Shown here: positions 1-22,673 of the stretch, piece after piece
How positions within the stretch are numbered: position 1 is the first letter of the stretch
How the letters are laid out: the number at the start of each line of letters is the position of its first letter
Source of the DNA: Haladaptatus caseinilyticus
Lineage (GTDB): Archaea; Halobacteriota; Halobacteria; Halobacteriales; Haladaptataceae
Direction: 5' to 3'
Assembly: GCF_026248685.1 (NCBI RefSeq)
Contig: NZ_CP111040.1
Span: forward strand, 310,001-374,000
DNA: 64,000 nucleotides
Notes under the pieces: model-generated
Seen by the model: the letters and a program-made list of their open reading frames with translations, nothing else
The model's database searches: none
Told to the model about the DNA's origin: nothing
Translations under genes and position numbers: made by a program

Positions 1-609
1 GGCATCAGCGACCCGGACCGGATCGTCTTCGAGGACTCCTTGTTGTGCGTCGCCAATCGCCGCGATTGCTGGTCCCGCTCCGTTTTCGATAGCGACGTGA
101 ATCGCGATGAACCAGCGCTCGTCCCCCGGCGCGAAGAAGTTCGTGATGGACCGAACGTTCTGCGGGAGCAGATCGTGTTCCGAGTCCTCACGGATCCAGT
201 TGTAGAGAACGTAGCCATCGTAGGAGAGTACTGGCGTCGCACCAAGTCGAGCAGTCGATTCGTACAGCGGAACGGCCACTCCCGCTGGAATGGTCTTGGC
301 GGTATTGGCGTCGATTTTGTGAACGTACGCGTTCGCGAGAAATCCAGTGACGGTATAAATGCGGGCGAGTTCGCGGTCAGTCAAGCCGTCGAAGAATTCG
401 CTCGATGGTGCTTCGAGACCACGAACTCGTGGTCTGAGTTGGTCAGTTTCGAGCAGCTTGGGAAGACTCGTACCCAACTCGTCGAGTTCGTTTAAAAACG
501 GCTGGGCGTCCGCCCCGAACGACGCGAGGGGTTCGGTATTTGGCAGGAACCCACGGTTCGGGTCGATGTTAAACCGCTCGTAGTCGAGCGCCGCAACGCG
601 TTCGGCCAT
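1..609 (-). CDS. Indoleamine 2,3-dioxygenase family protein (3' end missing)
   Basis: Heme dioxygenase that opens the indole ring of tryptophan to N-formylkynurenine, the first step of the kynurenine route. The first 203 codons are present and the reading frame is still open at the window edge; family members are usually near 380-400 residues, so the heme-ligand histidine lies outside. Recognition rests on the conserved middle of the family: PVLSYDGYVLYNW, followed by FFAPGDERWFIAIHVAIE and the GAGPAIAAI stretch. The ATG at 607-609 has a TATA-like cttaaa about 30 bases upstream, which suits a leaderless transcript. Kynureninase, which acts two steps later, starts 900 bp away on the other strand, which supports the assignment. 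Confidence 0.82.
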   Translation of the reverse strand, partial: MAERVAALDYERFNIDPNRGFLPNTEPLASFGADAQPFLNELDELGTSLPKLLETDQLRPRVRGLEAPSSEFFDGLTDRELARIYTVTGFLANAYVHKIDANTAKTIPAGVAVPLYESTARLGATPVLSYDGYVLYNWIREDSEHDLLPQNVRSITNFFAPGDERWFIAIHVAIENGAGPAIAAIGDAQQGVLEDDPVRVADA

Positions 610-636
610 GTCTGGTTTCGATACGATGCTCCGATC

Positions 637-643
637 CTTAAAG
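637..643 (-). promoter_or_regulatory. TATA-like box of the indoleamine dioxygenase gene
   Basis: Reading on the minus strand, GCTTTAAG lies 28-34 bases before the ATG at 609. That is the distance expected for a haloarchaeal TATA box when transcription begins at or next to the start codon. The call is from spacing and composition only. Confidence 0.4.
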
Positions 644-764
644 CATGAAGTTCTAGATCGCTGTCAACTCTGGTGGACAGGGACCGATTCAGTACACTAC
701 GACACACAACTACGCAGTACGGGTCGTAACTGGGCCCCCGAAATTACAAACGAGTACGCCCAAC

Positions 765-1382
765 TCACAACACCCGAAACACACGAACCGTATCACGATT
801 CCCAGGTTCGCACACCAACTGTGCGAGGCCGAGGTCGGTAAACACCTGCTTCCAGTTCCGGTGATAGAGCGGGAAGTCGTCGTGGACGTAACTCACTTCG
901 GCACCTGACCGACCGCGCTGGGGGCTGTTACCCTCGTTCTCGGCGGTGATGAGGATATCACTCGTAACGCGAATCAGTTCCTCGAACACCCACGTGTTTT
1001 CGGGATGAATGTGCTGGAGGGTTTCGACCGAGTAGACGACGTCGAAGGCGTCGTCGGGGAACTCTGGGAGTACGTCCTCGATTGCGCCGGTGTGGAACGT
1101 CCCCGTCGCGGCAAGGCGCGGATACTGCTCTGCCATTACGTCGAACGACTCGTCGTTGATGTCGATACCCGTGAGGTTCTCATAGCCGTCATCGAGGAGA
1201 TGGGCGAGGTGACGGCCGGAACTACAGCCAATCTCGAGGATTTCAGCGTCCTCGTCCGCGTAGTACTCGAATACGCTGGCGAGGGTGTCGCTTACCTCGT
1301 TCGACCCGATTTGGGCGTAGTACTCGGGTGAAAACTCCCCCGAGCGTTCGGCCCAACTGCGATGATTGTCCTCCGGTTCCAT
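765..1382 (-). CDS. Class I SAM-dependent methyltransferase
   Basis: A 205-residue Rossmann-fold methyltransferase. Motif I is ILEIGCSSGRHL near residues 48-59, the acidic end of strand 2 is TGIDIND, and the post-motif segment is FDVVYSVETLQHIHP. The substrate cannot be read from the sequence; the family includes small-molecule and ubiquinone-type C-methyltransferases. It lies between the indoleamine dioxygenase gene (155 bp downstream on the same strand) and the divergent kynureninase gene, so it may belong to the same regulon, but nothing shows that it acts in tryptophan breakdown. The start ATG follows a GGGTTAAG-type TATA-like sequence read on the minus strand (plus-strand positions 1404-1413). 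Confidence 0.75.
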   Translation of the reverse strand: MEPEDNHRSWAERSGEFSPEYYAQIGSNEVSDTLASVFEYYADEDAEILEIGCSSGRHLAHLLDDGYENLTGIDINDESFDVMAEQYPRLAATGTFHTGAIEDVLPEFPDDAFDVVYSVETLQHIHPENTWVFEELIRVTSDILITAENEGNSPQRGRSGAEVSYVHDDFPLYHRNWKQVFTDLGLAQLVCEPGNRDTVRVFRVL

Positions 1383-1473
1383 ACTGACCCTCTCGTAGCC
1401 AGAGGGTTAAGTGAGTCCGGAAATTTCGTCGGCGATGAAACGACGTTCTTCGCGGAGGTTTTCCACGCTCTCC

Positions 1474-1497
1474 GAAAAATACACCCCATTGGGGGTG
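1474..1497 (+). promoter_or_regulatory. kynU promoter with an inverted repeat
   Basis: An A-rich TATA-like gaaaaatac lies about 26-35 bases before the kynU ATG. Directly after it is the inverted repeat CACCCC-ATTG-GGGGTG (1482-1497), which would sit between the TATA box and the start site, a position typical of archaeal repressor operators. The function is inferred; only the symmetry and position are seen. Confidence 0.4.
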
Positions 1498-1508
1498 CCA
1501 CTCGAAGC

Positions 1509-2795
1509 ATGGACGACGAGTTCGAACTCGGGCGTGACCACGCCCAACGACGCGACGACTCGACTGACGTGATGGTTCGCGACCGGTTCTACCTCCCCGA
1601 CGACCTCTATCTTGACGGCAACTCCCTCGGGCCGCTTTCCACCGATGCCGAAGAGAGCCTCGAACACGTCCTCGACGAATGGCGCGAACTCGGTATTCGC
1701 GGGTGGACGGACGGTGACCCGTCATGGTTTCACTACGGCGAACGCCTTGGCGAGCGCCTCGCGCCGATGGTTGGAGCCCGCGAGGATGAAGTCGTGGTGG
1801 CGAACTCCACGACGATCAACATTCACACCCTCGTCGGCACGTTTCTCGACCGCTGTGCCCGCGAAGAGCGTGGACAGAAAGTCGTCGTGAACGACTTGGA
1901 CTTCCCGACCGACCATTACGCCATTCGTTCGCAGTTACAGACTCGGGGTCTCGATCCCGACGAGCACCTCATCGTCGTCGAGTCGCACGATGGACGAACC
2001 ATCGACGAGAGCAATATCGAAGCGGCGCTCGACGCACACGACGACGTGGGAATCGTCTTTATGCCGTCCGTGCTCTATCGCTCGGGCCAACTCTTCGACA
2101 TCGAATCGATCACCGACGTGGCACACGAGCACGACGCGTACGCGGGATTCGACCTCGCTCACTCTGCCGGTGTGATTCCTCACTCGCTGGCCGACGACGG
2201 CGTCGATTTCGCGGTCTGGTGTCACTACAAATATCTAAACGCGGGGCCGGGTGCCATCGCTGGACTGTACGTCCACAGCGACTATCACGGCGAAACTCCC
2301 GCACTCGCAGGCTGGTGGGGACACGATAAGGAGACGCAGTTCGAGATGCGAACGACCTATACACCCGCACAGTCCGCTGGTGCGTGGCAGACTGGAACGA
2401 TTCCGGTCCTCAGTGCCGCGCCACTTCTCGGTGTATTCGACATCGTGGACGACGTGGGAATCGAACGACTCCGCGAGCAGTCACTCGCATTAACGGACTA
2501 CTTCATGTATCTAGTGGACGAGCGCCTGCCGGAATGTTCGGTCGGAACGCCACGTGATCGATCCCGCCGTGGTGGCCACGTCGCCATCGAACACGAGGAA
2601 GCCTACCGAATCACCGAGGCGCTCAAGGAGCGGGGGGTCGTCGGTGATTTCCGCCCGCCGAATGTCGTTCGTCTGTGTCCCTCCCCGCTTTACGTTGGGT
2701 TCGAGGACGTGTGGAACGCCGTAGAGCACTTGCGGGAAATCATCGACGGCCGCGAGTACGAGCAGTTCGCCGACCGAGACGGCGGCGTGACCTAA
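1509..2795 (+). CDS. kynU: Kynureninase
   Basis: PLP enzyme that cleaves kynurenine to anthranilate and alanine. The 428-residue length is right for the family. Visible marks are the N-terminal DLYLDGNSLG (residues 32-41), the phosphate-binding VVANSTTINIH, the aspartate segment YAGFDLAHSAG, and the PLP lysine in CHYKYLNAGPG (Lys241). The ATG at 1509 is preferred over the longer open frame from 1362, because the extra 49 codons look non-coding and would cover the promoter. It is followed 77 bp later by the BtrH-like gene on the same strand, and its product anthranilate is the substrate of the CoA ligase encoded 18 kb downstream. Confidence 0.92.
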   Translation: MDDEFELGRDHAQRRDDSTDVMVRDRFYLPDDLYLDGNSLGPLSTDAEESLEHVLDEWRELGIRGWTDGDPSWFHYGERLGERLAPMVGAREDEVVVANSTTINIHTLVGTFLDRCAREERGQKVVVNDLDFPTDHYAIRSQLQTRGLDPDEHLIVVESHDGRTIDESNIEAALDAHDDVGIVFMPSVLYRSGQLFDIESITDVAHEHDAYAGFDLAHSAGVIPHSLADDGVDFAVWCHYKYLNAGPGAIAGLYVHSDYHGETPALAGWWGHDKETQFEMRTTYTPAQSAGAWQTGTIPVLSAAPLLGVFDIVDDVGIERLREQSLALTDYFMYLVDERLPECSVGTPRDRSRRGGHVAIEHEEAYRITEALKERGVVGDFRPPNVVRLCPSPLYVGFEDVWNAVEHLREIIDGREYEQFADRDGGVT

Positions 2796-2872
2796 ACACT
2801 CGATAGCCGACCATCCCCTCGGTATGTTCCGCGGTCGATATTGCTTTACCCCGCGCACTCGGTCGAACGTAT

Positions 2873-3853
2873 ATGCAACTTTCCTCGTACACACACTCGC
2901 CGGGTGCTCATTGCGGGTCGGCGTCGCTTCACAACCTCGCTACTTTCTACGATTGGGGATTTTCTGAGTCGCTCTGTTTCGGACTCGGCTCCGGCCTCGG
3001 ATTCGGCTATTACGAGCGTGGCCCCGCCAGTCGCGTTATCATGGGCCGAAACAGTGGGTTAGAAACCAACTTCTTCGAGACGCTCGGCATCGACTATCGC
3101 GAACAGAGCGGCCAACAACGGGAGTCGGCGTGGAACGACGTGCGGGAGCAGCTCGAAGACGGCGTTCCGGTAATGCTGTTCGTGGACCTTTACTATCTCG
3201 ATTACTTCAATACGGACACGCATTTCGGCCCGCACATCCTCCTCTGCGTCGGCATCGAAGGTAACGAGGTGCGTCTCTCGGACAGCGAGTTTGATTCGAT
3301 CCAGCGACTACCGATTTCGCATCTCAGGGATGCGTGGGACTCCGACTACGGGTTCGGCCCGCTCGATAATCGATGGCTCGTCGTCCAGGATCCAACAGTC
3401 GAAACGTCCCTTCCGACGGCGGCCGACACAGCTATCGAACGCACGGCGACAATGCTACTCTCATCGAATGACGGCAACTGGAAGGCGCAGGGTATCGACG
3501 CGATTCGTCGGTTCGCGAACGACCTTCCGAACTGGACCGCGCTGGAAGATACGAGCTGGTGCGCCCGCTTCGCCTATCAGAACATCGAACGACGCGGAAC
3601 CGGGGGCGGTGCGTTCCGTCGGCTGTACGCCGAGTTCCTCGATGAAGTCGCGCCGGAACTCGGACTGCGGGAGGACGTTCCGACCCGGCTCTACGACATC
3701 GCGGACGATTGGACCCACTTGAGCACGACCCTCAAAAACGCAAGCGAGGCGGAGGGTGAGGAACAGGCGCAACTTCTCGAAAACGCTAGTGACCAAGCAA
3801 ACGGGATCGCCGACCGTGAGGAGGAATTGTTCACTCGACTTCGCGAGTTGTAG
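2873..3853 (+). CDS. BtrH N-terminal / DUF4872 domain protein
   Basis: A 326-residue protein with the two-part layout of the butirosin BtrH family: a papain/C39-like N-terminal half and a helical DUF4872 C-terminal half. BtrH itself moves an acyl group from a carrier-protein thioester to an amine. The candidate catalytic residues are Cys14 in AHCGSASLHN, His121 in GPHILLCVG and Asp137 in VRLSDSEF, in the order and spacing of a Cys-His-Asp triad. The C-terminal end is rich in Glu and Ala and probably coiled coil. It follows kynU closely on the same strand and may be co-transcribed. Its substrate is unknown; amide or thioester chemistry on a kynurenine-pathway compound is possible but inferred. 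Confidence 0.72.
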   Translation: MQLSSYTHSPGAHCGSASLHNLATFYDWGFSESLCFGLGSGLGFGYYERGPASRVIMGRNSGLETNFFETLGIDYREQSGQQRESAWNDVREQLEDGVPVMLFVDLYYLDYFNTDTHFGPHILLCVGIEGNEVRLSDSEFDSIQRLPISHLRDAWDSDYGFGPLDNRWLVVQDPTVETSLPTAADTAIERTATMLLSSNDGNWKAQGIDAIRRFANDLPNWTALEDTSWCARFAYQNIERRGTGGGAFRRLYAEFLDEVAPELGLREDVPTRLYDIADDWTHLSTTLKNASEAEGEEQAQLLENASDQANGIADREEELFTRLREL

Positions 3854-4514
3854 CAGGGACTGCGTCGTGTATTCCGCCTACTGGAGAATATTATATGTGA
3901 TTATTGACTCCAATTGGGGGTTTCGTCTCGCCCGAGCCGGGAACAGCACAGTCATACTCCTGGCGCGTATCGAACCGACTTAAAACCGATCTACGTTCGC
4001 GTTTCTGCCGAACGGCACCGGGCTATCCGACACTAATACCGCACCACAATTCGATCGGTTGACAATTCTTGGTACCGAAGGCGGAATCGATTGGCAGTCA
4101 CGGAGGGACCGTCGATTTCGGGATGAATGTCGTGGCGTGACCGACCGAATCCCCACATTCACTTGCGAACGCAGGCATTTTGTTTACGCCACAGCGGTCG
4201 ATAGAATTGGTTGTCGAAGGTTGGAGACCAACCTACCATCCTTTCCTTCGACACACCTATTCCTAACCAATCACGAAACGTAGTTCTCTGGTTTCCCTTT
4301 CTCGATTCTCCGATGGAAATGTAGTCTCTCACGTCATCGAAACTTTCCCACAACATCTGACATCTGCTTACGGAACGGTTTGAGAGACGTGCTGAGTCCT
4401 CATCTCAGTGAATTCTGATAAAAGATTCGTCGAACATCCGTCCCCGAAAGTGGCTCCTTCGCGAACGCTTTCACCTTGTTCTCCCCACGTTCCGATAAAA
4501 CAGTTCGTCGCTTC
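3854..4514. other. Gene-poor stretch
   Basis: About 660 bases between the convergent ends of the BtrH-like and DUF892 genes. Short open frames occur on both strands, but none has haloarchaeal-looking composition, a start signal or a motif I recognise. I see no clear repeat or RNA gene in it. Confidence 0.4.
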
Positions 4515-5012
4515 TTACTGTTCTTGCGGGACCGACGAGACATCGTACTCTTCGGTCTGCTCTTTCAATTCGTTCAGTGCATCTTCCTCTTCTCGGAGGT
4601 TCTCCTCTAAGAGATCCGCCGACTCCTGATGACCGAGTTGGTCGGCGATGAAAGTGAGATTACCGTAAGCAGCGATTTCGAGATGCTCGCTCTTCTGCGC
4701 GGCGGCCAAATCGAACAGTTCGTGCACGTTTTGATCAGTGACACTGTTCGCGAATTCGTCATGGTCTTCGATAAGGCCGTCAACGGCGTGGCATTCTGCC
4801 TGCTCCGGAGACGTTTCGATCTGCTCGAATACTTCTTCTAGCCGTTCGATGTGAGTCTCCGTTTCGTCACGATGTTCTTCGAAGCTCGATCGTAGCTCTT
4901 CGTCTTCCACATCGTCCGCTAGTTCTTCGAGCGCATCGACGAGCTGATGTTCGACATAATAGATCTCTTTCAATCCTTCTTCGAACAAGTCGGTGAGGGA
5001 TTCGTTACTCAT
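4515..5012 (-). CDS. YciE/YciF-type ferritin-like protein (DUF892)
   Basis: A 165-residue all-helical protein of the DUF892 family (YciE/YciF), ferritin-like four-helix bundles with a di-iron centre that are linked to stress. The N-terminus SLTDLFEEGLKEIYYVEHQL is typical; further helices carry the expected acidic and histidine ligands, for example EEHRDETETHIERLEEVF and KSEHLEIAAYGNL. It is highly acidic. The frame stays open upstream to 5147, but the residues before the chosen ATG look non-coding, and the conserved domain begins at MSNESL. Manganese catalase is encoded 2.3 kb away, so an oxidative-stress role is plausible. Confidence 0.85.
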   Translation of the reverse strand: MSNESLTDLFEEGLKEIYYVEHQLVDALEELADDVEDEELRSSFEEHRDETETHIERLEEVFEQIETSPEQAECHAVDGLIEDHDEFANSVTDQNVHELFDLAAAQKSEHLEIAAYGNLTFIADQLGHQESADLLEENLREEEDALNELKEQTEEYDVSSVPQEQ

Positions 5013-5307
5013 TGTATGCTTCGGTTCAACGAAGGTCGAAGACGGTATTCGGTCTTGGTGCTGCATATGCGTGTCTTTAACTAACCCATCCGTCGACGAA
5101 CGATGTATTATGGAACGAGACTGCGTCGATCTTCGGTTTGCACTCACTGGAAGAGAGTGATGGAACCCGTTCGTATCGACTTATGAAGGCGTCCGCTCTC
5201 CACCTCCGTGTTCGCACTGTGTTCAATTTCCATTGCGTTCGGCACGATGAGGACTGTTCTCCACTTAATACCGCTGAGAATGCAATCAACTTTGAAAAGA
5301 GGAGTCC

Positions 5308-6348: not shown

Positions 6349-6478
6349 GTGCCCCCTACACGACATGGTGAATTGCACATCACGCGAACCGCTCGCGCAT
6401 CGAGTAGTCGGGATATGGATCGGTATCTCTCAACGTATCACCCAGTAGAACCCGAAAAACTACGATCTTAAGGATTAC

Positions 6479-7159: not shown

Positions 7160-7289
7160 GTGTTCCGAAAAGGACGGTAGTTCAATATCTGTGTTGGCCC
7201 CTCGTCCATGGATATTATCTTTCCCTTTCGTGTCGAACGTACGGCATTCTCAGCGTGATATCGCCATGCCTGATGCAGTGTGGCGGTGG

Positions 7290-8123: not shown

Positions 8124-8354
8124 TCGCTATTCGATTAGCCGTACTGCCTGCTAATGCACGGCAGTTAGGTTATCCTGCGATGGCGGTCTTGGCAATCCGG
8201 GTTTGCTGACCACTGAGGCGATAGATATCGGTACGTTCACGATTCGGTCATACTTACAAAACCCTCGGCGGTTGGAGACTCCGACCACATAGTGAAGTTC
8301 CGTGGTTTCGTCGCTATCTTCACTCCCTTCTAACCCTCAGTTTTCGTCCTGACC

Positions 8355-9527
8355 TCAGTCCTTACTGAGGTATTCGTTCGCGATTTTGTCCACGTCTTTG
8401 TCGCCTCGTCCGCTGAGATTGACAATGATAACGTCGTCCTCGTGTCGCCCGGCGGCGAGCTTCTTCGCGAGTGCAACACCGTGGCTCGACTCCAGTGCCG
8501 GAACGATGCCTTCGAGTCGGCAGAGGTCTTGGAACGCTTCGAGCGCCTCCTCATCCACGATTCCTCGATACTCACAGCGCCCGACTTCGCGGAACATCGC
8601 GTGTTCCGGGCCAACGCCGGGGTAGTCGAGACCGGCGGCGATGGAGTGAACTTCCACATCGTCGTCGATGATTCGCGTGCGCATCCCGTGGATGACGTCC
8701 TCCTTTCCGGAAGCGAGCGGAGCCGCGTGGCGTTTCGAATCCTCGCCTTCACCACCTCCTTCAGCACCGTAAAACTCGACGTCGTCGTCACGGAACGGAT
8801 GGAACAGCCCCATCGCGTTGGAACCGCCGCCGACGCACGCGACAGCGGCATCAGGCAATTTCCCTTCCTTTTCCTGGATCTGTTCCCGTGCTTCCGTCCC
8901 AATGACGGACTGGAAGTCACGAACCATCCGTGGGAACGGGTCCGGCCCGACGACCGACCCGACCAGATAGTGCGTATCGTTAATGTTCTCGATGAGATCT
9001 TCGAGTGCGGCGTCAACTGCGTCCGCGAGACCTTGCCCGCCTTGCGTCACTTCGTTCACTTTCGCGCCCATCAACTCCATGCGGAAGGCGTTCATCTCCT
9101 GTCGATCGAGATCCTTTTTTCCCTGATAGATCTCCGTCTCTAGTCCCAGCAGCGCGCCGACGATGGATGTCGCCGTTCCGTGCTGACCCGCTCCGGTTTC
9201 CGCGATGAGACGTTCTTTTCCAGCGTGTTTGGCCATGAGTCCCTGTCCGAGGCAGTTGTTGAGTTTGTGAGCACCGCCGTGGAGGAGGTCTTCACGCTTG
9301 AGATAAATTTTTGCGCCGTACGCTTCCGACAGTCGTTCGGCGTGATACAACGGCGTTGGTCGCCCGGCGAAATCTCGACGGAGACGCTCTAATTCGGCTC
9401 GAAAATCGTCATCGTCTTTCACCGTATCGTACGCATCGGCCAACTGCTGGAGTACGTCGCCTAGTTCGTCGGGTACGTATCGTCCACCGTATGATCCGAA
9501 CTCGTGTTGTTGCCCTTCGTCAGACAT
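8355..9527 (-). CDS. trpB: Tryptophan synthase beta chain (stand-alone)
   Basis: PLP enzyme joining indole and serine to form tryptophan. The 390-residue protein has the full TrpB1 pattern: EFGSYGGRYVP at the start, the PLP lysine in LLHGGAHKLNN, the catalytic glutamate in IAETGAGQHG, the phosphate loop CVGGGSNAMG and ESSHGVA near the end. The ATG at 9527 is preferred over the one at 9542, because a TATA-like box lies 26-35 bases before it. No trpA or trpC is adjacent, which is unusual since haloarchaea normally carry a trpCBA cluster. Its neighbours are catabolic genes. It may be a second copy. Confidence 0.9.
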   Translation of the reverse strand: MSDEGQQHEFGSYGGRYVPDELGDVLQQLADAYDTVKDDDDFRAELERLRRDFAGRPTPLYHAERLSEAYGAKIYLKREDLLHGGAHKLNNCLGQGLMAKHAGKERLIAETGAGQHGTATSIVGALLGLETEIYQGKKDLDRQEMNAFRMELMGAKVNEVTQGGQGLADAVDAALEDLIENINDTHYLVGSVVGPDPFPRMVRDFQSVIGTEAREQIQEKEGKLPDAAVACVGGGSNAMGLFHPFRDDDVEFYGAEGGGEGEDSKRHAAPLASGKEDVIHGMRTRIIDDDVEVHSIAAGLDYPGVGPEHAMFREVGRCEYRGIVDEEALEAFQDLCRLEGIVPALESSHGVALAKKLAAGRHEDDVIIVNLSGRGDKDVDKIANEYLSKD

Positions 9528-9552
9528 GTCCTGACATACCATAGGATGCAGT

Positions 9553-9562: not shown

Positions 9563-9619
9563 GGTACGATTATTTGCACTGTTTTCCGATTGATCTTTCG
9601 CTTCCGATGGTGTCCCTAC

Positions 9620-10393
9620 CTATGACCAGTCCGGGTCACGCCGTTCGAGTTGCGCATCGACGCCTTCCCGGTAGTCAGGGTCGGTTCGGGCTGCCTCTAG
9701 CGAAATCGCCTCTACGTGTGATTTCGCGGCCGTTGGAGACATCTCCGCACTCGCGTAGACGCTCCGTTTTAATTTCTTGAGCACGCGTGGGCTTTTGGCC
9801 GTGAGTGCATCGAGTGCCGACTCGACCGTCGCGTCCAGCGCATCCGCCGGAACACTTCTGGCGACGAGTCCGATTTCGTCGGCGCGCTCGCCGGAGATCG
9901 CTTCCCCTGTCATGAGTAGGTCCATCGTCGTCGGCAGGCCGACTCGATGGACCAACTCCGGCGGTGAGAAATGATTGACGACGCCGAGCGTGGACTCCGG
10001 CTGCCCGATCTGGGCATCATCTGCGGCGATCGGAATGTCAGTGTGCAAGAGGAGGTCGAATCCGCCGCCGTACGTGTGGCCATCGATTTTCGCGACCGTG
10101 GGTTGGGGCATCGTCCGCATTTCGGTGAACAGGTCCTCCCACGTTTCCGTGAACGGCTCGAGCGCGTACTCGCGCTCTTTCACCTCCTGCAGGTCGCCAC
10201 CCGCACAGAAGGCGTCGTTGCCCGCGCTCTCGAAGAGTACCACCTGAACATCGTCTCGGTCCCGGTACTCACCGAGTCGATCGGTGATCGCACGCTTTGT
10301 TTCCATATCGACCGCATTCAGTTTCGCTTCCCGTCGTATCTCGATTCGAGCGACATCGTCTTCCACGCCGAATGCGGCGTTGATCTCGGTCAT
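9620..10393 (-). CDS. Enoyl-CoA hydratase/isomerase family protein
   Basis: A 257-residue crotonase-fold protein. The oxyanion-hole segments are DAFCAGGDLQEV and GHTYGGGFDLLLHTDI, and the first catalytic glutamate is in GQPESTLG. The usual GGTQRL motif that follows is replaced by NHFSPPELV, so the second half of the active site differs from ordinary enoyl-CoA hydratases. It is last in an operon with SDR, MaoC, acyl-CoA dehydrogenase and RidA-like genes. In the aminobenzoyl-CoA route proposed here it could hydrate a ring double bond or hydrolytically open a 2-oxocyclohexane-carboxyl-CoA, as BadI-type crotonases do. The exact reaction is inferred. Confidence 0.82.
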   Translation of the reverse strand: MTEINAAFGVEDDVARIEIRREAKLNAVDMETKRAITDRLGEYRDRDDVQVVLFESAGNDAFCAGGDLQEVKEREYALEPFTETWEDLFTEMRTMPQPTVAKIDGHTYGGGFDLLLHTDIPIAADDAQIGQPESTLGVVNHFSPPELVHRVGLPTTMDLLMTGEAISGERADEIGLVARSVPADALDATVESALDALTAKSPRVLKKLKRSVYASAEMSPTAAKSHVEAISLEAARTDPDYREGVDAQLERRDPDWS

Positions 10394-10467: not shown

Positions 10468-11235
10468 TCATTCCACGGTCCAGCCACCATCGACGACCAG
10501 ACACTCCCCGGTGACGTAGCTCGCCATCTCGCTGGCGAGGAACAATACGGGCGCGGCTACCTCGTCGGGGTCGGCGAACCGCTCTATCGGGGTTCGGTCG
10601 AGTAAGCGCCGATAGAGGTCGTCGTTCTCGCGGATTCCTTCGGTCAGATCGGTCGTCACGTAGCCGGGAGCGACGGCGTTGACGCGAACGTTCGGTGCCC
10701 AATCGAGGGCGAGACTTTTGGTCAGACCGACGAGACCGTGTTTCGATGCGACGTACGGATGCTGTCGTGGAATACCGGCGATACCACCGACGCTCGCGAC
10801 GTTGACGAGCGACCCATCGGACTCCTGGAGTAACTCACCTGCTTCCTTCGCACAGGCGAATGCGCCGCGGAGGTTCACGTCGAGTGTGCGGTCGAACTCG
10901 TCAAGTTCGACCGTCTCGGGACGACCGAGACCACCGCGAGGATTGATTCCGGCGTTGTTGACGACGACATCGATGTGACCGAACTCGTCCTCAACCTTCG
11001 AGAACAGGTCAGCAACCGCATTTCGGTCCCCCACGTCCGTCGGTACGACCATTGATTCCCCACCGTGTTTTCGGACGGTCTCCACGGCGTCGGCGACGTC
11101 TGCCTCGGTTCGGGAAGTCGGGACCACGTCGGCACCCGTCTTCGCGAACGCCTCCGTTATTGCACGCCCGATTCCGCGACTGCCGCCGGTCACCACGACC
11201 ACGTTTCCGTCGAACGCCGGTGTCAAATCGACCAT
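10468..11235 (-). CDS. SDR family oxidoreductase (FabG-like)
   Basis: Short-chain dehydrogenase of about 255 residues. It has the cofactor loop VTGGSRGIGRA, the NNAG motif, the catalytic serine in NVASVGG and the YxxxK pair in YVASKHG, with the usual C-terminal ECLVVDGG. It would oxidise a 3-hydroxyacyl-CoA or cyclic alcohol with NAD(P). The ATG at 11235 is chosen over a GTG at 11256. It lies 60 bp after the MaoC gene and 74 bp before the crotonase gene on the same strand, so it is probably the hydroxyacyl-CoA dehydrogenase of the ring-cleavage set. Confidence 0.87.
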   Translation of the reverse strand: MVDLTPAFDGNVVVVTGGSRGIGRAITEAFAKTGADVVPTSRTEADVADAVETVRKHGGESMVVPTDVGDRNAVADLFSKVEDEFGHIDVVVNNAGINPRGGLGRPETVELDEFDRTLDVNLRGAFACAKEAGELLQESDGSLVNVASVGGIAGIPRQHPYVASKHGLVGLTKSLALDWAPNVRVNAVAPGYVTTDLTEGIRENDDLYRRLLDRTPIERFADPDEVAAPVLFLASEMASYVTGECLVVDGGWTVE

Positions 11236-11316
11236 CTCCCGGAACTGTGATGGCACTGATAATCAAACTGGCGTCGATGCGAAACTGCCGTGGTTCAACT
11301 CCGTCGTTCGCCCTCG

Positions 11317-11772
11317 TTATTCGCGTTCGACCAGCACGCGTTTCGTCAACAGCAAAACGACGTCTCCTTCGTCGGTATGCATCCGAAGCTCGAACACGAC
11401 GACGCCATGGTCTTCGTCCCACTCTTCGAGGCCAACGATTTCAGCGTCGGCGGAGAGAACATCGCCCGGTCTAACTGGTCGTCGCCATTGGAGCATTTCG
11501 ACTTCGACGCCAGCGACGACGGCGAGCCCTGCTTGTTCGATGATGCCGTCCACAAACCGTCGCATGCTGATAGCGGCCGTGTGCCACCCACTGGCTACGA
11601 GTTCACCGAACATCGAATCCGCGGCCGCCGCCGAATCGGTATGAATCGGTTGAGGGTCGAATTGCTCACCGAACGAGGCGATCTCGTCCGCCGTGACCGT
11701 TTCAGCACCGAGGTCGAACGTTTCACCGACGACGAGGTCTTCGTAATACCGGGGCGTCGAATCGTCTGTCAT
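11317..11772 (-). CDS. MaoC family dehydratase
   Basis: A 151-residue hot-dog-fold enoyl-CoA hydratase of the MaoC/R-hydratase type. The hydratase motif is seen as FGEQFDPQPIHTD followed by FGELVASGWHTAA, giving the Asp and His pair of the active site. The start YYEDLVVGETFDLG is typical of the family. It sits between the acyl-CoA dehydrogenase and SDR genes in the same direction, with gaps of 56 and 60 bp. The operon therefore carries two hydratase folds, this one and the crotonase, which suggests that one of them does something other than simple hydration. Confidence 0.87.
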   Translation of the reverse strand: MTDDSTPRYYEDLVVGETFDLGAETVTADEIASFGEQFDPQPIHTDSAAAADSMFGELVASGWHTAAISMRRFVDGIIEQAGLAVVAGVEVEMLQWRRPVRPGDVLSADAEIVGLEEWDEDHGVVVFELRMHTDEGDVVLLLTKRVLVERE

Positions 11773-11828: not shown

Positions 11829-12977
11829 TTAGTCGTACATGCGTTTGCTTACGACCAACCGATTGATCTCGTTCGTGCCGTCGTAGATCTGTGTTCCCTT
11901 TGCCTCGCGCATGTATCGCTCGACGGGATAGTCGTGCGAGTACCCTCGTGACCCGAGTACCTGAACCGCCTCTGTCGAAATATCCATCGCAGCATCCGTG
12001 GCGAAGGTTTTCGCCATTGCGGCGTCCTGCGTGACGCGTTCACCTTGGTCGCGACGAGCAGCGGCATACATCGTAAGCAGTCGCGCTGCCTGTGTTCGCG
12101 TGGCCATATCCGCGAGTTTGAAACCGATTCCCTGGAACTCGCGGATGGGTTGGCCGAACTGCTCGCGTTCGTCAGCGAACGCTTTCGCCGCGGAAAGCGA
12201 CCCCTGTGCGAGGCCGACACCCTGGGCGGCGGTTCCGATTCGTCCGATGTCGAGCCCTTCCATTACATATCGGAAGCCACGTCCCGGTTCGCCGACGACG
12301 TTCTCGGCAGGTACCCGGACGCCGTCGAATCGAATCTCGCTCTCGATGGCTGCTTCACCCTCCATACAAGGGATGTTTCGGACGAACTCGATGCCGTCCC
12401 GTTCTGCGGGGTCGGGAATACCGACGAGGCTTACTCCGTCGTGGCCCTCTCCGCCGGTTCGTGCGACGACGAGCAGAAAGTCGGCAGCCTCGCCGTTCGT
12501 CGTCCAGACCTTGTGCCCGTCGAGTATCCATTCGTCGCCCTCACGACGTGCGGTCGTCTCCATCCCGGCGGCGTCGCTTCCCGCGTCGGGTTCGGTCATC
12601 GACAGCGCGGGGATGGCTTCCCCACGACAGACGGGCGCCAACCACTCCTCGCGTTGCCAATCGTCGCCGAATTCGGCGATGGGGTAGCCCACCAGTCCGC
12701 AGGCGATGTTAACCGCTCCGGCGACGAGTTTCCACGCCCGCGAAAGCTCTTCTACCGTCACCACGAACGACCGATAGTCGAGTCCTGCGCCGTCCACCTC
12801 GGTCGAAAACGGAACGCCAGTCAGTCCGGCCTCGCCGACACGACGGACGATTTCTGCTGGGAACTCGCCGCGTGCTTCGTACTCGTCCACGGACGGGACG
12901 ATTTCCGCCTCACAGAATTCCCGAACCGTCTCGCGGTGTTTCTCGTGTGCTTCCGTCACCTCGAATTCACCGAGCAT
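11829..12977 (-). CDS. Acyl-CoA dehydrogenase
   Basis: FAD-dependent acyl-CoA dehydrogenase of 382 residues with the family order: N-terminal helices, the beta-barrel SMTEPDAGSDAAG, the TTNGEAADFLLVVART stretch and C-terminal helices. The catalytic-base motif, usually YEGT, reads IYDGTNEINR, so aspartate stands where glutamate is common. The ATG at 12977 overlaps the end of the RidA-like gene by 11 bp, which marks translational coupling; the longer open frame to 13031 lies wholly within that gene. In context it would desaturate an alicyclic or dicarboxylic acyl-CoA from the aminobenzoyl-CoA route; electrons would go to ETF. Confidence 0.88.
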   Translation of the reverse strand: MLGEFEVTEAHEKHRETVREFCEAEIVPSVDEYEARGEFPAEIVRRVGEAGLTGVPFSTEVDGAGLDYRSFVVTVEELSRAWKLVAGAVNIACGLVGYPIAEFGDDWQREEWLAPVCRGEAIPALSMTEPDAGSDAAGMETTARREGDEWILDGHKVWTTNGEAADFLLVVARTGGEGHDGVSLVGIPDPAERDGIEFVRNIPCMEGEAAIESEIRFDGVRVPAENVVGEPGRGFRYVMEGLDIGRIGTAAQGVGLAQGSLSAAKAFADEREQFGQPIREFQGIGFKLADMATRTQAARLLTMYAAARRDQGERVTQDAAMAKTFATDAAMDISTEAVQVLGSRGYSHDYPVERYMREAKGTQIYDGTNEINRLVVSKRMYD

Positions 12978-13386
12978 CGGCCGCCTCCTCGTCGATGACG
13001 GCGAATCCTTCCAACTCAACCAACGCATCATCCTTGAAGAACCCGCTCACTTCGAAGAGCGCGAGCGCGGGATACGCCTCGAAGTACCGACCGAACACCT
13101 CTCCCAGCGGTTCGAGGTTCGCTCGATACGAGTCCCGGTCGGCCACGAAAATGTTGAGCTTCACGATATCTTCGCTCACGCCACCAGCCTCTTCGACTAC
13201 CGTCGAGAGGTTTTCGAGCACCTGTTCAAACTGTCCGACGAGGTCATCGGGGGCGACGATGTCGCCGTTCGACCCGGTCGCATCCTGCCCGGCAAGATAG
13301 AGCGTTTTCCCGCCGTCTACCAGAACACCGTGGTTGAACCCGCGCGGCTCGGCCAACTCGGGTGGCGCGACGATTTCCCGTTCCAT
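12967..13386 (-). CDS. RidA/YjgF family protein lacking the RidA arginine
   Basis: A 139-residue Rid-family protein, first in the operon. The fold signature is clear: KTLYLAGQDATG, FEQVLENLSTVVEEAGG, DIVKLNIFVADRDSY and VELEGFAV, with the conserved Glu126. The arginine that defines imine-deaminating RidA (Arg105 in E. coli, in PARSCVEV) is replaced by Leu108 in PALALFEV. That arginine binds the free carboxylate of 2-aminoacrylate. The product of aminobenzoyl-CoA monooxygenase/reductase is a cyclic enamine whose carboxyl is tied up as a CoA thioester, so a Rid protein without the arginine could hydrolyse it. That role is inferred from chemistry and context. Confidence 0.85.
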   Translation of the reverse strand: MEREIVAPPELAEPRGFNHGVLVDGGKTLYLAGQDATGSNGDIVAPDDLVGQFEQVLENLSTVVEEAGGVSEDIVKLNIFVADRDSYRANLEPLGEVFGRYFEAYPALALFEVSGFFKDDALVELEGFAVIDEEAADAR

Positions 13387-14673: not shown

Positions 14674-15119
14674 GGCGTGGAAATCGATTCGTTACGGGGC
14701 TGACTCTTCTGTTTCCACCTTCACCGGAGGTGTTTAATACGGTTCTCCAAACGGTACGGCTCGGTACTCCAGTATTGACCGAACGTTCGCCAGCCATCGT
14801 CTTAACCAGAACGGTCCGATCAACACTATTACGCAGCGCCTTTGAGCCATCAACCCCCTCCAAATCCATCTCAAAACGATTTTTTTTAGAAAGTAATCGA
14901 TTTGTATTGGTATGCTGGCATTACGGACAATATCCTCCACGAGACACCGATTTCTCACCGGTACCATTACTGGTTTCATCGCCGTGTCAGCACTCTCTAT
15001 CACCGATACAAAATCATTCTATGCACAGAGAACGGGCACGGAGACAAAGTGGGGATCCTTTGGTATCCTTTTCCTATCGCGTTCGCTGTCCTACACAGAT
15101 TACCACCTACCGGAGGTTT
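14674..15119. other. Intergenic stretch before the 2-hydroxyacid oxidase gene
   Basis: About 450 bases between the starts of two divergent genes. It holds a run of eight T (14880-14887) and a GGAGG Shine-Dalgarno-like sequence at 15112-15116, three bases before the chosen ATG of the next gene. The open frame of the following gene runs back through this stretch, but its composition there is not coding-like. I see no other gene. Confidence 0.4.
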
Positions 15120-16535: not shown

Positions 16536-16571
16536 GGACGATCTGCAGTCGAATCGAAATCGTCGAACCAG

Positions 16572-17564: not shown

Positions 17565-17818
17565 GATGTTCTACTTTGGTCTCTCGACCGACTCAAACGA
17601 CTACAGTTGCCACCAGTTCTCGACCGTCAGCACCTCATCGACTACTTGTTTCTCGAGAATCCTTGTCGAGTTTCGGTATCGGTGCGATTCCAACTGTATA
17701 TCCACTGGTAACGAACCTGTACAGGTGATTCGCCGGTTTGTTTTTATAATTAACTACTTAGGCAGTTTGTTCGATAGAATTTTTCCGAAATTTGAATTTG
17801 TGATCGATAGTCACTCAG

Positions 17819-19975
17819 CTACCGACCGGGTGCGGGATTCTCGGGCGTGAACAATACCAAATCTGCGCGGCCGCTCCCGACCATCGTGTTCACCTCGTCG
17901 TATGTCGTCCGGTAGTTCGTCGACAGCGTCGGTATTTCCACCTCGTTTCGGAACCGTTCGCTGAACCGGCCCAGCGTTTCGGTGTCGAACGCCGGTCGTT
18001 CACGGACGGACGCCTGCCCCGCAACAATCGCGAGAAGGTCGCACCCACGTTCCTTGAGCACTCGTGCGACTTCGTACGACTCTCGTGTTTTGAACCCGTT
18101 GAGGTTCCAGTCGGTCGCCTGGAGTGTCACACCGATGGGCTTCTTATCGGGCCAAACGTCCCGAATCGCATCGAACACTTCGAGGGGATAGCGCATCCGG
18201 TTTTCGAGCGATCCGCCGTACTCGTCGTCGCGATCGTTCGCGAGCGGTGAGAGGAAACTCGACAGCAGATACCCGTGTCCGGCGTTCAGTTGGACGTGGT
18301 CGAATCCGGCCGCGTCCGCCCGCTCCGCCGCGCCGACGAACGCTGTCCGAACTCGGTCCAAATCGTCGGCATCCATGGCGGTTGGCGTAGGACTCGCTGG
18401 GCCGAACGGTTTCGCCGACGGCGCGAACAAGTCCCACCGTTCGTCCTCCGGAAGGGGACGGTCGAGGCCGTGTTCTCTTGACTTCGTCGCACCACGCCGA
18501 CCGGCGTGGAACAGGGACGCACCGACGACGGTTTCGGTCGGTGACGATTCGCGGATGCGACCGATCGCACTATTGAATGCGTCATTGTGTTCGTCGGCAT
18601 ACAGTCCCGGCGTCCCGGCCGTTATTCGCCCGTCAGGAGTGACAGCCAGCGGGTCAGTGAGGAGTAGTCCCGGTCCACGTTCACCCTGCCCAACTAGTCG
18701 GTCGAGATACGAATCGGCCGGGCGGCCGTCGGTCGCCACCTCGGTTGGCGGAAGCGTCATTACAGTCCGGTTCGGCACCGTTACCTCCCGTAGCGGGAAA
18801 CGTTTGAACAGCGGTGGCGTCGCCACTGCGGTCGAACAATTGCCTTCGGCCGCTGCGAACCATTGGTCGAACTGATCGACGAACGACGGGTCGCGGACCC
18901 GGAGATTGTCGTATGTGATCCGTCCGCTCCGGGTGAGCAAATTGAACGCGAACCGCCGTGGCTCGAGATTTTGGTAGCGTTCGACGTTTTCGAAGTAGTT
19001 CTCGCTTCGTTCCGCCGCTTCCTGCAGTCCCGTGACGCGTGGTCGTCGTTCTTTTTCGTACCAGTTGAACGCCGCTCGGGTGTCACTGCCGTGCTCCTCG
19101 AACGCCTCTTGAAGGGCGACTGCGTCTTCCATCGCCATCTTCGTCCCCGACCCGATGGAGAAATGTGCGGTATGGGCGGCGTCGCCGATGAGGACCACGT
19201 TTTCGTGCGACCAAGTGGCATTTTTCACGGTCGGGAAGTTTCGCCACGCGTACAGCTTCGACTGGAGTTCGTACCCGTCGAGATGGTCCGAAAACAGATC
19301 CTCAAAGTACTCGAGCGCTTCGCCCTCGCTTACCTCGTCCATCCCCGCAGCCCGCCACGTGTCCTCCGTGCATTCGACGATGAACGTACTCTTGCGCCCC
19401 GGATAGGCGTGAATACGCCAGAGACCGTGTTCGTTTTCCCTGAAGACGAACGTGAACACGTCGAAGGGCTTGTCCGTTCCGAACCACGCGAATTTCGCGT
19501 TTCCGGCGCTTTCGTTCGGACGGAACGCCTCCTCGTAGCGTTCCCGAACGGTGCTGTTCAGTCCGTCGGCGCCGATGAGAACGTCCGTGTCTTCTCGGAG
19601 TCGTTCCGGATCGTCGATGGCGTCACCGTGGCGGAGTTCGACACCGAGTTCCGCCGCTCGCTCCTGCAGAATCGACAAAAGGTCGGCGCGCATGATTCCC
19701 GCGAAGGAGTGGCCACCGCATCGGAAATACTCCCCATCGTAGTGGATGTCGATGGGGTCCCAGCGGACGAATGCATCCGTGATTCGTTCGTGGCTTAGCC
19801 GGTCCGCCTCACGGAGCGAGGAAAGGGTAGCGTCGGAGAAAACGACACCCCAGCCGTAGGTGTTGTCAGCGGGGTCACGCTCGTGGACGACGACCTCCCA
19901 CTCCGGAAAGGACTTCTTCAGGAGGAGGGATGCGTAAAGGCCGCCCGGCCCACCTCCGAGTACGTCCACCCTCAC
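17819..19975 (-). CDS. 2-aminobenzoyl-CoA monooxygenase/reductase-like fusion flavoprotein
   Basis: A 718-residue two-domain flavoprotein. Residues 1 to about 390 form a salicylate-hydroxylase-type FAD monooxygenase: VLGGGPGGLYASLLL, a central DVLIGADGLNSTVRERY and VVLIGDAAHTAHFSIGSG. Residues from about 400 form an Old Yellow Enzyme domain: LFKRFPLREVTVPNRTVM, VQLNAGHGYLLSSFLSP and DEYGGSLENRMRYPLEV. This exact fusion is the layout of Azoarcus evansii 2-aminobenzoyl-CoA monooxygenase/reductase, which hydroxylates and reduces anthraniloyl-CoA to a non-aromatic enamine-ketone. The salicylyl-CoA 5-hydroxylase type is a close alternative. It overlaps the LLM oxidoreductase gene by 4 bp, and a 2-aminobenzoate-CoA ligase gene lies upstream on the same strand. 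Confidence 0.85.
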   Translation of the reverse strand: MRVDVLGGGPGGLYASLLLKKSFPEWEVVVHERDPADNTYGWGVVFSDATLSSLREADRLSHERITDAFVRWDPIDIHYDGEYFRCGGHSFAGIMRADLLSILQERAAELGVELRHGDAIDDPERLREDTDVLIGADGLNSTVRERYEEAFRPNESAGNAKFAWFGTDKPFDVFTFVFRENEHGLWRIHAYPGRKSTFIVECTEDTWRAAGMDEVSEGEALEYFEDLFSDHLDGYELQSKLYAWRNFPTVKNATWSHENVVLIGDAAHTAHFSIGSGTKMAMEDAVALQEAFEEHGSDTRAAFNWYEKERRPRVTGLQEAAERSENYFENVERYQNLEPRRFAFNLLTRSGRITYDNLRVRDPSFVDQFDQWFAAAEGNCSTAVATPPLFKRFPLREVTVPNRTVMTLPPTEVATDGRPADSYLDRLVGQGERGPGLLLTDPLAVTPDGRITAGTPGLYADEHNDAFNSAIGRIRESSPTETVVGASLFHAGRRGATKSREHGLDRPLPEDERWDLFAPSAKPFGPASPTPTAMDADDLDRVRTAFVGAAERADAAGFDHVQLNAGHGYLLSSFLSPLANDRDDEYGGSLENRMRYPLEVFDAIRDVWPDKKPIGVTLQATDWNLNGFKTRESYEVARVLKERGCDLLAIVAGQASVRERPAFDTETLGRFSERFRNEVEIPTLSTNYRTTYDEVNTMVGSGRADLVLFTPENPAPGR

Positions 19976-20844
19976 GCCCGGTCACTCCCGTCCCACTTGT
20001 CACCGAGGGTGTCGGCCAGCAAGTCGAACTGTTCGGAGTCGGCGACGGTCGGAAACAGGACCAGTTCGTCACACCCCTCGTCCTCGTATCCTCGGACGAA
20101 CTGCGTGACCTCCTGCGGAGTCGTGAGCAGTCCGTCCGCGATTCGCTCGGCGAACGGCCCGGTGAACTCGTAGTAGTCGAGGAGATACTCCCGTCCTTTT
20201 TCGGCGACGTCCTCGTCGCCGAGTGCGTAGTAACCGTGACCCCAGACGGCCGGAGTTTCTGGCCTCTCGCATTCGGTCCACGCCGCGTTCGCGCGCTCGG
20301 CTTGTCGAGCGAACGCTCGTGGCGGCCCGCCCCCGTGGATGTAGCCGTCGGCGAACCGCCCGACTCGGCGATAGGTGTTGTCGCTATCCCCGCCGACAAG
20401 AATCGTCGGACCGCCTTCCTGAACCGGGTCGGGTCCAACGTCGTCGCCCTCCCAGTAGTCCCGCAGTTCGGCCAACTGCTGGTCGAACAGTCGACCTCGT
20501 TTCCCGAACTCGACACCGGCCGCGTCGTAGTCGTCCTTTCGAGCACCGAGTGCCATTCCGAGCGTGAGACGACCGTTCGAGAGAACGTCGAGCGTCGCCG
20601 CCTTCTTCGCCAGCGCGGCATTGTTCCGGAGCGGGCCCGCGATAATCGTCGTCGCCAATTCGATTTCCTCGGTGACCGACGCACAGGCCGCGAGGGTGGC
20701 TACCGGGTCGAGTCCGTGGTAGCATAATCGGTCGAACACGCCGAGGCTGGTAAAGGGTCCCTCATCCGCCCACCTTGCCCACGAAAGTATCAGTTCCCGG
20801 TCGGCTCCATCCAACGTATTCGGCAGTCCAATCCCGACTTGCAT
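19972..20844 (-). CDS. LLM class flavin-dependent oxidoreductase
   Basis: A 290-residue luciferase-like TIM-barrel protein using FMN or coenzyme F420. It shows VGIGLPNTLDG at strand 1, the SLGVFDRLCYHGLDPVATLA segment, ELATTIIAGPLRNNAALAKK and GRLTLGMALGARKDDYDAAG, all typical of the family. Its stop overlaps the start of the aminobenzoyl-CoA monooxygenase/reductase gene by 4 bp, so the two are translated together. Possible jobs are an F420-dependent reduction of a ring intermediate or the supply of reduced flavin; neither can be decided from the sequence. Confidence 0.85.
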   Translation of the reverse strand: MQVGIGLPNTLDGADRELILSWARWADEGPFTSLGVFDRLCYHGLDPVATLAACASVTEEIELATTIIAGPLRNNAALAKKAATLDVLSNGRLTLGMALGARKDDYDAAGVEFGKRGRLFDQQLAELRDYWEGDDVGPDPVQEGGPTILVGGDSDNTYRRVGRFADGYIHGGGPPRAFARQAERANAAWTECERPETPAVWGHGYYALGDEDVAEKGREYLLDYYEFTGPFAERIADGLLTTPQEVTQFVRGYEDEGCDELVLFPTVADSEQFDLLADTLGDKWDGSDRA

Positions 20845-21017
20845 GATTATTTGTACTCCGATTGCAACCTACATCATCCTATATCTACCGATGGGTGTTA
20901 TCAATTACCAAATACCGTTTTCTACACTACGACACGGGAAAGATTCACTTTTCGCGAGTATCGTCGTTGGAAACCAACCCGAGACAGAACGCCAAAACGG
21001 AATCCTCGCGCTTTCGA

Positions 21018-22673
21018 TCACCCTTGTTCGCGTTTTCTAAGTTCGTTTCTTCGAATCTTCCCCGTCTCCGTTTTCGGGAGTTCGGCGACGTATTCGATGC
21101 GACGGGGGTATTTGTACGGTGCAATTCGACTTTTCACGTGTTCCTGGAGCCTTGTCGTGAGTCCGCTGCTCGGCTCGTACCCGTCAGTGAGGACGATGAA
21201 TGCTTTGACAACCTTGCCACGTTCCTCGTCGGAACTGCCAACGACCGCCGTTTCGTATATTTCCTCGCGCTCTTGAAGAGTCGCTTCGACTTCCGGGCCA
21301 GGGACGTTGTACCCGCTTGAGATGATGAGATCGTCGCGCCGGGATTTGTACTCGAATCGGTTGTCTTCCGTCCGGACGAACACGTCGCCGGGGAGGCTCC
21401 AGCCGTCTCGAACCGCCAGCTCCTGCTTTTCGGGGCGACCCCAGTACGTAACGCCTGTCGGTCCTCGCACGGCGAGCAATCCGGCTTCGCCGTGGTCGAG
21501 ATCTTCGCCGGTGTCTGGGTCGATGACCTTACATTCGTAGCCGGGAACGGGGAGCCCCGTAACGGACGGGTCGATGTCGTCTCCCAATCGGTGACTGACG
21601 AAAATGTGTAGCATTTCGGTCGAGCCGAGTCCGTCCAGCAGTTCGATACCGAGCGATGATTTCACGCGCTCGAACGTCGATGGCGAGAGTGGTTCGCCCG
21701 CGCTGATGCCGACGCGAAGCGACGAAAGGTCGGCAGCCGCAATGCGGTCGGAGTGTTCGTTGAGTAGTTGATTGTAGGCGGTTGGAATCGACCCGAGGAT
21801 CGTTACGCCGTACGTATCCACAGCATCCACGAGGTCTATCGGTTCTGCGTTTTCGATGATAACGGTGCTCGCGCCGAATCGGAGCGGAAACGCGACGAGC
21901 ACGCCATAGCCGAACGTAAACGCGATGGGTGGATTACCGGAGAACACGTCGTCTTCCGTCGGAGCAAGACAGTATCGTGCGTAGCCATCCACGATAGCGA
22001 GCATCTGTCGATGCGTGTGTACCGTCCCTTTCGGTCGCCCCGTCGTCCCGCTCGTGTACGCGATCATGGAGAGGTCGTCCCGGTGTGTCGCCGCGGCATC
22101 GAGTTCCGACGACGCCGACGCCAGGAGTTCGTCGTAATCGAGGAAGTCGTGCGCGACACCCTCGCGCGACGCGACGACGATCGTCTGAAGCGAATCACAC
22201 GTCTCCATCGCGGCCTCGACCGGTTCCAGCAGTCCGTCGTGGACGAGAGCGGTCGTCGCGCCCGAGTCTTCCACGACATAGGTGCACTCTTTCGCCTGCA
22301 GGAGTTTCATCGACGGCACCGGAATGGCTCCGATCTTCTGAAGTGCGAGACAAGAGATGGCATACTCCGGCCGGTTCGGGAATCGAACGAAGACGCGGTC
22401 GCCGGGTTCGACCCCGAGATCTAAGAGTGCGTTTCCGAGACTGTTGACCCGCTCCAAGAGCTCATCGTAGGTGATTTTTTTGTCTTCGAAGTAGATGGCA
22501 ACCTCGTCGCCTCGCCCCGCTTCGACGTTTTTATCGACGAGTTCGACGGCCGCATTGAGTGATTTCGGATAATGAAGTTCGGGAAGCGCGTGAACGATGT
22601 CTGCCCGCATGTCCACGGGTGGGAATTTTTCTACAGGGACGTTCCCTGATTGGATGCTGCTATCACGAAGCAT
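21018..22673 (-). CDS. 2-aminobenzoate-CoA ligase-like acyl-CoA synthetase
   Basis: A 551-residue adenylate-forming enzyme of the benzoate-CoA ligase branch. The P-loop YTSGTTGRPKGTVHTH is at residues 206-221, followed by the A4/A5 region PPIAFTFGYG and GLGSTEMLHIFVSH, which marks benzoate and 2-aminobenzoate ligases. The hinge is YKSRRDDLI and the catalytic lysine is in LPKTETGKIRR. The N-terminal ALPELHYPKSLNAA segment also fits aromatic acid ligases. It would activate anthranilate to anthraniloyl-CoA for the downstream monooxygenase/reductase gene. The ATG at 22673 is supported by a TATA-like box 24-32 bases upstream. Benzoate or another aromatic acid remains an alternative substrate. Confidence 0.82.
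   Translation of the reverse strand: MLRDSSIQSGNVPVEKFPPVDMRADIVHALPELHYPKSLNAAVELVDKNVEAGRGDEVAIYFEDKKITYDELLERVNSLGNALLDLGVEPGDRVFVRFPNRPEYAISCLALQKIGAIPVPSMKLLQAKECTYVVEDSGATTALVHDGLLEPVEAAMETCDSLQTIVVASREGVAHDFLDYDELLASASSELDAAATHRDDLSMIAYTSGTTGRPKGTVHTHRQMLAIVDGYARYCLAPTEDDVFSGNPPIAFTFGYGVLVAFPLRFGASTVIIENAEPIDLVDAVDTYGVTILGSIPTAYNQLLNEHSDRIAAADLSSLRVGISAGEPLSPSTFERVKSSLGIELLDGLGSTEMLHIFVSHRLGDDIDPSVTGLPVPGYECKVIDPDTGEDLDHGEAGLLAVRGPTGVTYWGRPEKQELAVRDGWSLPGDVFVRTEDNRFEYKSRRDDLIISSGYNVPGPEVEATLQEREEIYETAVVGSSDEERGKVVKAFIVLTDGYEPSSGLTTRLQEHVKSRIAPYKYPRRIEYVAELPKTETGKIRRNELRKREQG

Follow-up and report, generated by a model that had tools for sequence, protein, structure and literature searches.

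The 64,000-nucleotide stretch of Haladaptatus caseinilyticus DNA analysed here (the window) appears to carry a haloarchaeal gene cluster for the catabolism of tryptophan, and possibly of indole, through anthraniloyl-CoA, in which the ring would be reduced by an LLM-class (luciferase-like hydride transferase-like) protein. On the gene content and its conservation, we put the probability of this reading at about 70%. The window is part of a 607 kb contig (C5), a secondary replicon of the 4.8 Mb haloarchaeal genome, and the fusion protein discussed below has its nearest named relatives in Haladaptatus. The window proteins were classified by Pfam and NCBIfam/TIGRFAM profile searches with curated cut-offs. 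The Pfam and NCBIfam matches confirmed the four enzymes named in a first-pass annotation of this DNA, indoleamine 2,3-dioxygenase (IDO), kynureninase (KynU), a CoA ligase and a monooxygenase-OYE fusion. The acyl-CoA operon described there as having five genes is also present, but it consists of six co-directional genes (RidA-ACAD-MaoC-SDR-ECH-TrpB), the sixth being a pyridoxal phosphate enzyme identified as TrpB. The features are as follows:

1..609, minus strand: IDO, N-terminal part (PF01231, 6e-32), predicted to convert tryptophan to N-formylkynurenine; the gene runs past the window edge and spans G000:C5:309545-310579 in full
1509..2795, plus strand: KynU (TIGR01814, 380 bits against a cut-off of 246), predicted to convert kynurenine to anthranilate and alanine; the open reading frame opens at 1362 and homology puts the likely true start near 1509
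2873..3853, plus strand: BtrH_N/DUF4872 acyltransferase-like protein (PF14399, PF16169)
8355..9542, minus strand: TrpB, second paralogue (TIGR00263, 542 bits against a cut-off of 392)
9620..10393, minus strand: enoyl-CoA hydratase/isomerase family protein (ECH; PF00378, 2e-45), possibly a ring-opening hydrolase or a hydratase
10468..11256, minus strand: SDR oxidoreductase (PF13561, 2e-72)
11317..11772, minus strand: MaoC-like hotdog dehydratase (PF01575, 2e-19)
11829..12977, minus strand: acyl-CoA dehydrogenase (ACAD; PF00441/02770/02771); the open reading frame opens at 13031 and the start was set by comparison with the Haladaptataceae cluster L035
12967..13386, minus strand: RidA-family protein (TIGR00004, 2e-14, under that family's cut-off), proposed to hydrolyse an enamine/imine and free ammonia
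17819..19975, minus strand: FAD monooxygenase/OYE-like fusion, 718 aa (FAD_binding_3 and Oxidored_FMN), proposed to hydroxylate anthraniloyl-CoA at C5
19972..20844, minus strand: LLM-class protein (PF00296), proposed to be an F420H2-dependent ring reductase
21018..22673, minus strand: benzoate/anthranilate-CoA ligase family protein (TIGR02262, 386.6 bits against a cut-off of 375), proposed to be an anthranilate-CoA ligase

The altered OYE domain and its probable LLM partner

The first-pass annotation had taken the fusion to be exactly the enzyme of Azoarcus evansii. This did not hold: the OYE domain has lost its FMN-binding segment, and an LLM gene that the annotation had missed lies next to it. 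This exchange is a more surprising finding than the pathway linkage. In the alignment, the haloarchaeal fusions end soon after a GRADL motif, while bacterial homologues run on with a [GA]RxHLxDP segment. The window OYE domain terminates ahead of the FMN-phosphate segment and is also without other FMN ligands. The FMN contacts of YqjM include Gln102, Arg215, Gly284, Gly307 and Arg308 (PMC4002455); in YqjM numbering, the window fusion has a Thr at the Arg215 equivalent and a Ser at the Gln102 equivalent.

The sample of 67 fusion homologues comprised 49 LLM-positive and 18 LLM-free sequences, with the haloarchaeal salicylate-type branch set aside. The OYE C-terminus was lost in 49/49 fusions with an LLM gene upstream and complete in 18/18 LLM-free bacterial fusions, some of them from Rhodococcus and Tsukamurella plasmids. 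The equivalents of Gln102, Arg215, Gly284 and Arg308 were each present in all 18 LLM-free bacteria and in 13, 4, 34 and 1 of the 49 LLM-positive fusions, respectively. Both the loss of the FMN features and its correlation with the LLM gene were observed directly. The LLM gene was found directly upstream of the fusion in Haloarchaea, Chloroflexota, Acidobacteriota, Armatimonadota, Actinomycetota and deltaproteobacterial metagenome-assembled genomes. The two genes overlapped by 4 bp in 17 of the 43 cases measured, and the same 4-bp overlap joins the LLM gene and the fusion start in the window. It is likely from these sequence patterns that the LLM partner took over ring reduction from the FMN/NADH site of the OYE domain.

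The AlphaFold2 model of the LLM protein (pLDDT 94) has the LLM TIM-barrel fold, and its sequence scores below the TIGR03619 cut-off. The LLM family offers a precedent in Fht, for which F420H2 is the hydride donor in reduction of the picrate ring (PMC8498797). The F420 synthesis gene product CofD was found in 27/29 LLM-positive genomes tested compared with 2/7 LLM-free (complete-type) ones, and cofH and npdG lie within the Natronosalvus cluster. The balance tips somewhat towards F420 as the LLM cofactor.

Conservation and linkage of the cluster in haloarchaea

In a protein search of plasmids, fusion homologues turned up in Haladaptatus, Halomicrococcus, Natronococcus and Natronosalvus, with identities of 61-85%. 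H. salinisoli and H. halobius have the cluster genes in one contiguous run, and in Natronococcus, Natronosalvus, Halomicrococcus and others the order differs but the genes still lie together; the clustering in the window is therefore not due to chance. In H. salinisoli a single block of ~17 kb has the order ligase-LLM-fusion-RidA-ACAD-MaoC-SDR-ECH-TrpB-MFS-BtrH-kynU-hydrolase-IDO, and there, as in H. halobius, a hormone-sensitive-lipase-family alpha/beta hydrolase sits between kynU and IDO. The window KynU is 79% identical to that of H. salinisoli, and the window RidA is 66-84% identical to the cluster RidA of other haloarchaea. Natronococcus CG52 has the same core together with an ABC transporter of the branched-chain amino acid type. 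In three Natrialbaceae-like genomes (G047, G102, G043) a gap of ~1.1 kb, which holds the LLM gene, separates IDO and the fusion gene; genes for KynU, the hydrolase, TrpB and the ligase are also near. For G043 the genome search gave one in-frame TGA in the fusion match frame (L004, G043:C1:122580-124727), possibly at its end or as a disruption.

Among 214 Halobacteria, a full-length fusion was present in eight, four of the window clade and four of a second clade at 45-47% identity. IDO was likewise found in 8/214, including 4/4 genomes with a window-clade fusion (hypergeometric 8e-7, uncorrected for relatedness), and it is physically linked to the fusion in several genera. KynU was present in 104/214 and tryptophan 2,3-dioxygenase (TDO) in 0/214; kynurenine in the remaining KynU-bearing genomes would need another source. 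The gene content, conservation, linkage and co-occurrence were all read directly from the genomes. They make it very likely that the region links kynurenine to anthraniloyl-CoA: the junction of the kynurenine and aminobenzoyl-CoA pathways proposed earlier is thus supported at the level of conserved linkage and co-occurrence, and its substrates and activities are predicted ones.

The window ligase is 66-81% identical to the ligases of two other haloarchaeal clusters. It is closer to the anthranilate-CoA ligase of pAL1, whose activity has been demonstrated (PMC3534580), at 41% identity and 394 bits (blastp), than to solved benzoate-CoA ligases, at 268-281 bits (phmmer, the scores of which are only roughly comparable with those of blastp). 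A PP[IL]xFTFG motif is common to the window ligase, the pAL1 enzyme and the ligases adjoining proteobacterial fusions; the same site reads AKLFFAYG in solved benzoate-CoA ligases and AKLFFTFG in the solved biosynthetic anthranilate-CoA ligase AuaEII. Homology and motif favour anthranilate as the substrate, short of proof.

The cluster TrpB is the second trpB copy of the genome and belongs to a second haloarchaeal TrpB lineage. Its catalytic motifs LHGGAHK, ETGAGQHG and GGGSN are intact, and the idea of a changed enzyme was rejected on this ground. The cluster TrpBs do not form a single clade, as they fall at three places in the second-paralogue lineage and require three label changes within it. 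In 15 regions checked, second TrpBs elsewhere in haloarchaea showed no linkage to cluster genes, bar one weak SDR match. Because the placement of TrpB in the cluster recurs, a role in the route is suggested. The simplest idea, which we advance tentatively, is that it may supply indole and serine as tryptophan.

Two further observations concern the surroundings of these genes. At L181 (G071:C17:306000-325000), from a genus that also includes two genomes with the cluster, IDO, KynU, the hydrolase and an ACAD occur together with no LLM or fusion gene, and the ring-degrading part has possibly been lost. Four clusters of Haladaptataceae (L035, L036 and L045 among them) have a conserved BtrH/DUF4872 acyltransferase-like gene adjacent to kynU or trpB.

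The proposed route and its alternatives

On the proposed route, tryptophan would be converted through N-formylkynurenine and kynurenine to anthranilate by IDO, KynU and a formamidase whose gene lies elsewhere, and the ligase would activate anthranilate to anthraniloyl-CoA. Hydroxylation of this thioester at C5 would fall to the FAD domain of the fusion. The LLM protein, instead of the lost FMN/NADH site of the OYE domain, would then dearomatise the ring with a hydride, for which F420H2 is the probable donor, to yield 2-amino-5-oxocyclohex-1-ene-carboxyl-CoA. RidA would then free ammonia to leave 2,5-dioxocyclohexane-carboxyl-CoA, and ring hydrolysis by ECH would lead to 4-oxopimeloyl-CoA, with ECH, SDR, ACAD and MaoC serving ring opening and beta-oxidation. 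Indole, converted with serine to tryptophan by TrpB, may enter the same route. We infer all substrates and activities, the F420 cofactor and the order of the late steps from sequence. Arthrobacter cells grown on anthranilate had, besides anthraniloyl-CoA, a C7H8O4 CoA ester read as a possible cyclohexanedione-carboxyl-CoA (PMC3534580); this is the product expected after deamination and fits the RidA step. In bacterial LLM-free operons, SDR, ECH, ACAD and ligase genes adjoin the fusion, as does RidA in Paracoccus (L190).

Several observations weigh against this route and are taken here together with the alternatives to it. In the window, unrelated genes (Mn catalase, GlcD, a transporter) split the cluster into blocks. 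No local gene for a kynurenine formamidase was found in the window, and the best candidate lies on another contig. The candidates are a hydrolase on C1, 66% identical to the cluster hydrolase of the relatives, and a PF04199 cyclase on C2; the latter was rejected as a local formamidase, its sole copy lying on another contig. Foldseek placed the LLM model among FMN- and F420-dependent enzymes alike, which gives no decision on the cofactor. The LLM/truncation statistics lack a phylogeny correction, and because truncation may have arisen few times, sequence counts are not independent events. In a tree built from the monooxygenase half, the majority of LLM-positive fusions group together, but a small number from Actinomycetota are placed close to the complete type and support for the deep branches is weak, which leaves the number of truncation events uncertain. 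Haloarchaeal motifs were used to draw the genome sample, and LLM-positive types are therefore over-represented.

The cluster itself has no gentisate dioxygenase gene, in line with the first-pass claim of a route without gentisate. However, the same replicon encodes, ~228 kb from the cluster and with no fusion gene nearby, a cupin resembling gentisate dioxygenase (82% to Natrinema) and an FAH-family protein (74%; L180, G000:C5:72000-91000), which also counts against the route and leaves that claim unproven. The fusion might form an aromatic 5-hydroxy product from salicylyl-CoA or anthraniloyl-CoA, to be hydrolysed and cleaved by gentisate dioxygenase with the OYE domain unused. NCBIfam names the fusion family salicylyl-CoA 5-hydroxylase/oxidoreductase (NF006101), and five haloarchaeal fusions with no LLM gene nearby, those of the salicylyl-type sister branch and one from a metagenome-assembled genome, are truncated as well. 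In Natrinema the fusion of this second clade adjoins a gentisate/5-aminosalicylate dioxygenase-like gene and FAH, and the clade therefore looks to be of the salicylyl-CoA type. Yet the window fusion scores 814.7 bits against the curated NF006101 cut-off of 1078, the LLM-type haloarchaeal clusters carry ACAD, MaoC, SDR, ECH and RidA, with no ring dioxygenase found in them, and retention of the LLM gene with the window branch would go unexplained. We consider this salicylyl-CoA/gentisate route unlikely.

An equally unlikely alternative is that the truncated OYE domain still reduces, with FMN weakly held or replaced by F420, and that the LLM protein acts elsewhere, for example in a later 5-oxo reduction. 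The AlphaFold2 model of the fusion (mean pLDDT 87.5) predicts that the OYE barrel is kept (TM 0.87 to solved OYEs); none of the 60 best sequence matches is a solved structure spanning the whole fusion. The equivalents of His167 and Tyr169 are retained in 44/49 and 46/49 LLM-positive fusions, so that binding of substrate or of some cofactor by this domain may persist, a further point against the main reading. Set against this, the Arg215 and Gln102 equivalents are mostly lost, the Arg308 segment is absent, and truncation follows the presence of the LLM gene without exception in the sample. Finally, that the neighbours are unrelated, with the anthranilate from IDO and KynU serving another purpose and the acyl-CoA operon degrading another aromatic acid, would suit the wide occurrence of kynureninase and the Halomicrococcus and Natronosalvus clusters, which show no IDO or KynU in the stretches read, but it is improbable given the linkage of the rare IDO to the fusion and a ligase motif that agrees with degradative anthranilate-CoA ligases.

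Beside the cluster, at 24729-29793 of the window, a Rieske oxygenase like glycine betaine monooxygenase and sarcosine-oxidase-like and GcvT-fusion genes look like betaine/sarcosine catabolism.

Relation to known systems

Azoarcus evansii has an aerobic 2-aminobenzoyl-CoA pathway with a ligase and a 2-aminobenzoyl-CoA monooxygenase/reductase. The haloarchaeal cluster has in common with it, and with the pathway of Arthrobacter sp. Rue61a pAL1, an AMP-forming anthranilate-CoA ligase (here a candidate) and an FAD-monooxygenase/OYE fusion. The linked beta-oxidation-type genes RidA, ACAD, MaoC, SDR and ECH are present here; RidA also occurs in the pAL1 neighbourhood, and SDR, ECH and ACAD in related proteobacterial operons. 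The haloarchaeal fusion is ~43% identical to that of pAL1 and lacks the FMN-binding C-terminus; with the Azoarcus enzyme, compared by description only, it does not share the intact FMN/NADH OYE site. Unlike both, the haloarchaeal cluster has an added LLM gene and linked IDO, KynU and TrpB genes. The domain architecture of NF006101 is matched over nearly full length, the differences being the score and the lack of a gentisate dioxygenase in the cluster. Relative to the known kynurenine pathway to anthranilate, IDO and KynU are present, with a candidate formamidase adjacent in relatives; IDO stands in place of TDO, and here, in an archaeon, the pathway would lead on into ring degradation through CoA thioesters. 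The LLM protein has the same fold as F420-dependent enzymes such as Mer, Fgd and the picrate reductase Fht, and its hosts usually carry an F420 biosynthesis gene; it differs in being coupled to an FAD monooxygenase fusion and in that its cofactor and substrate are putative.

Taken more broadly, the FMN-less OYE half may be a docking or substrate-binding scaffold on which the adjoining F420H2-LLM protein dearomatises the hydroxylated CoA-bound ring, forming a split F420-dependent ring reductase that in haloarchaea would be part of complete indole/tryptophan mineralisation. We rate the chances of this as about even. It would extend over haloarchaea, Chloroflexota, Acidobacteriota, Armatimonadota and some Actinomycetota, with the LLM gene often translationally coupled. 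Searches of the open literature, subscription papers aside, found no earlier account of such a kynurenine/anthraniloyl-CoA route in haloarchaea or of an F420 link. If true, this would be, as far as that literature goes, the first described archaeal CoA-thioester route for degradation of the tryptophan ring. A known flavoenzyme would moreover have a widespread second form, in which the reductive half-reaction is handed to another protein and probably another cofactor; such a form would fit the score of the window fusion under the NF006101 cut-off. On this reading F420 would also have a new part to play in the aerobic catabolism of aromatics.

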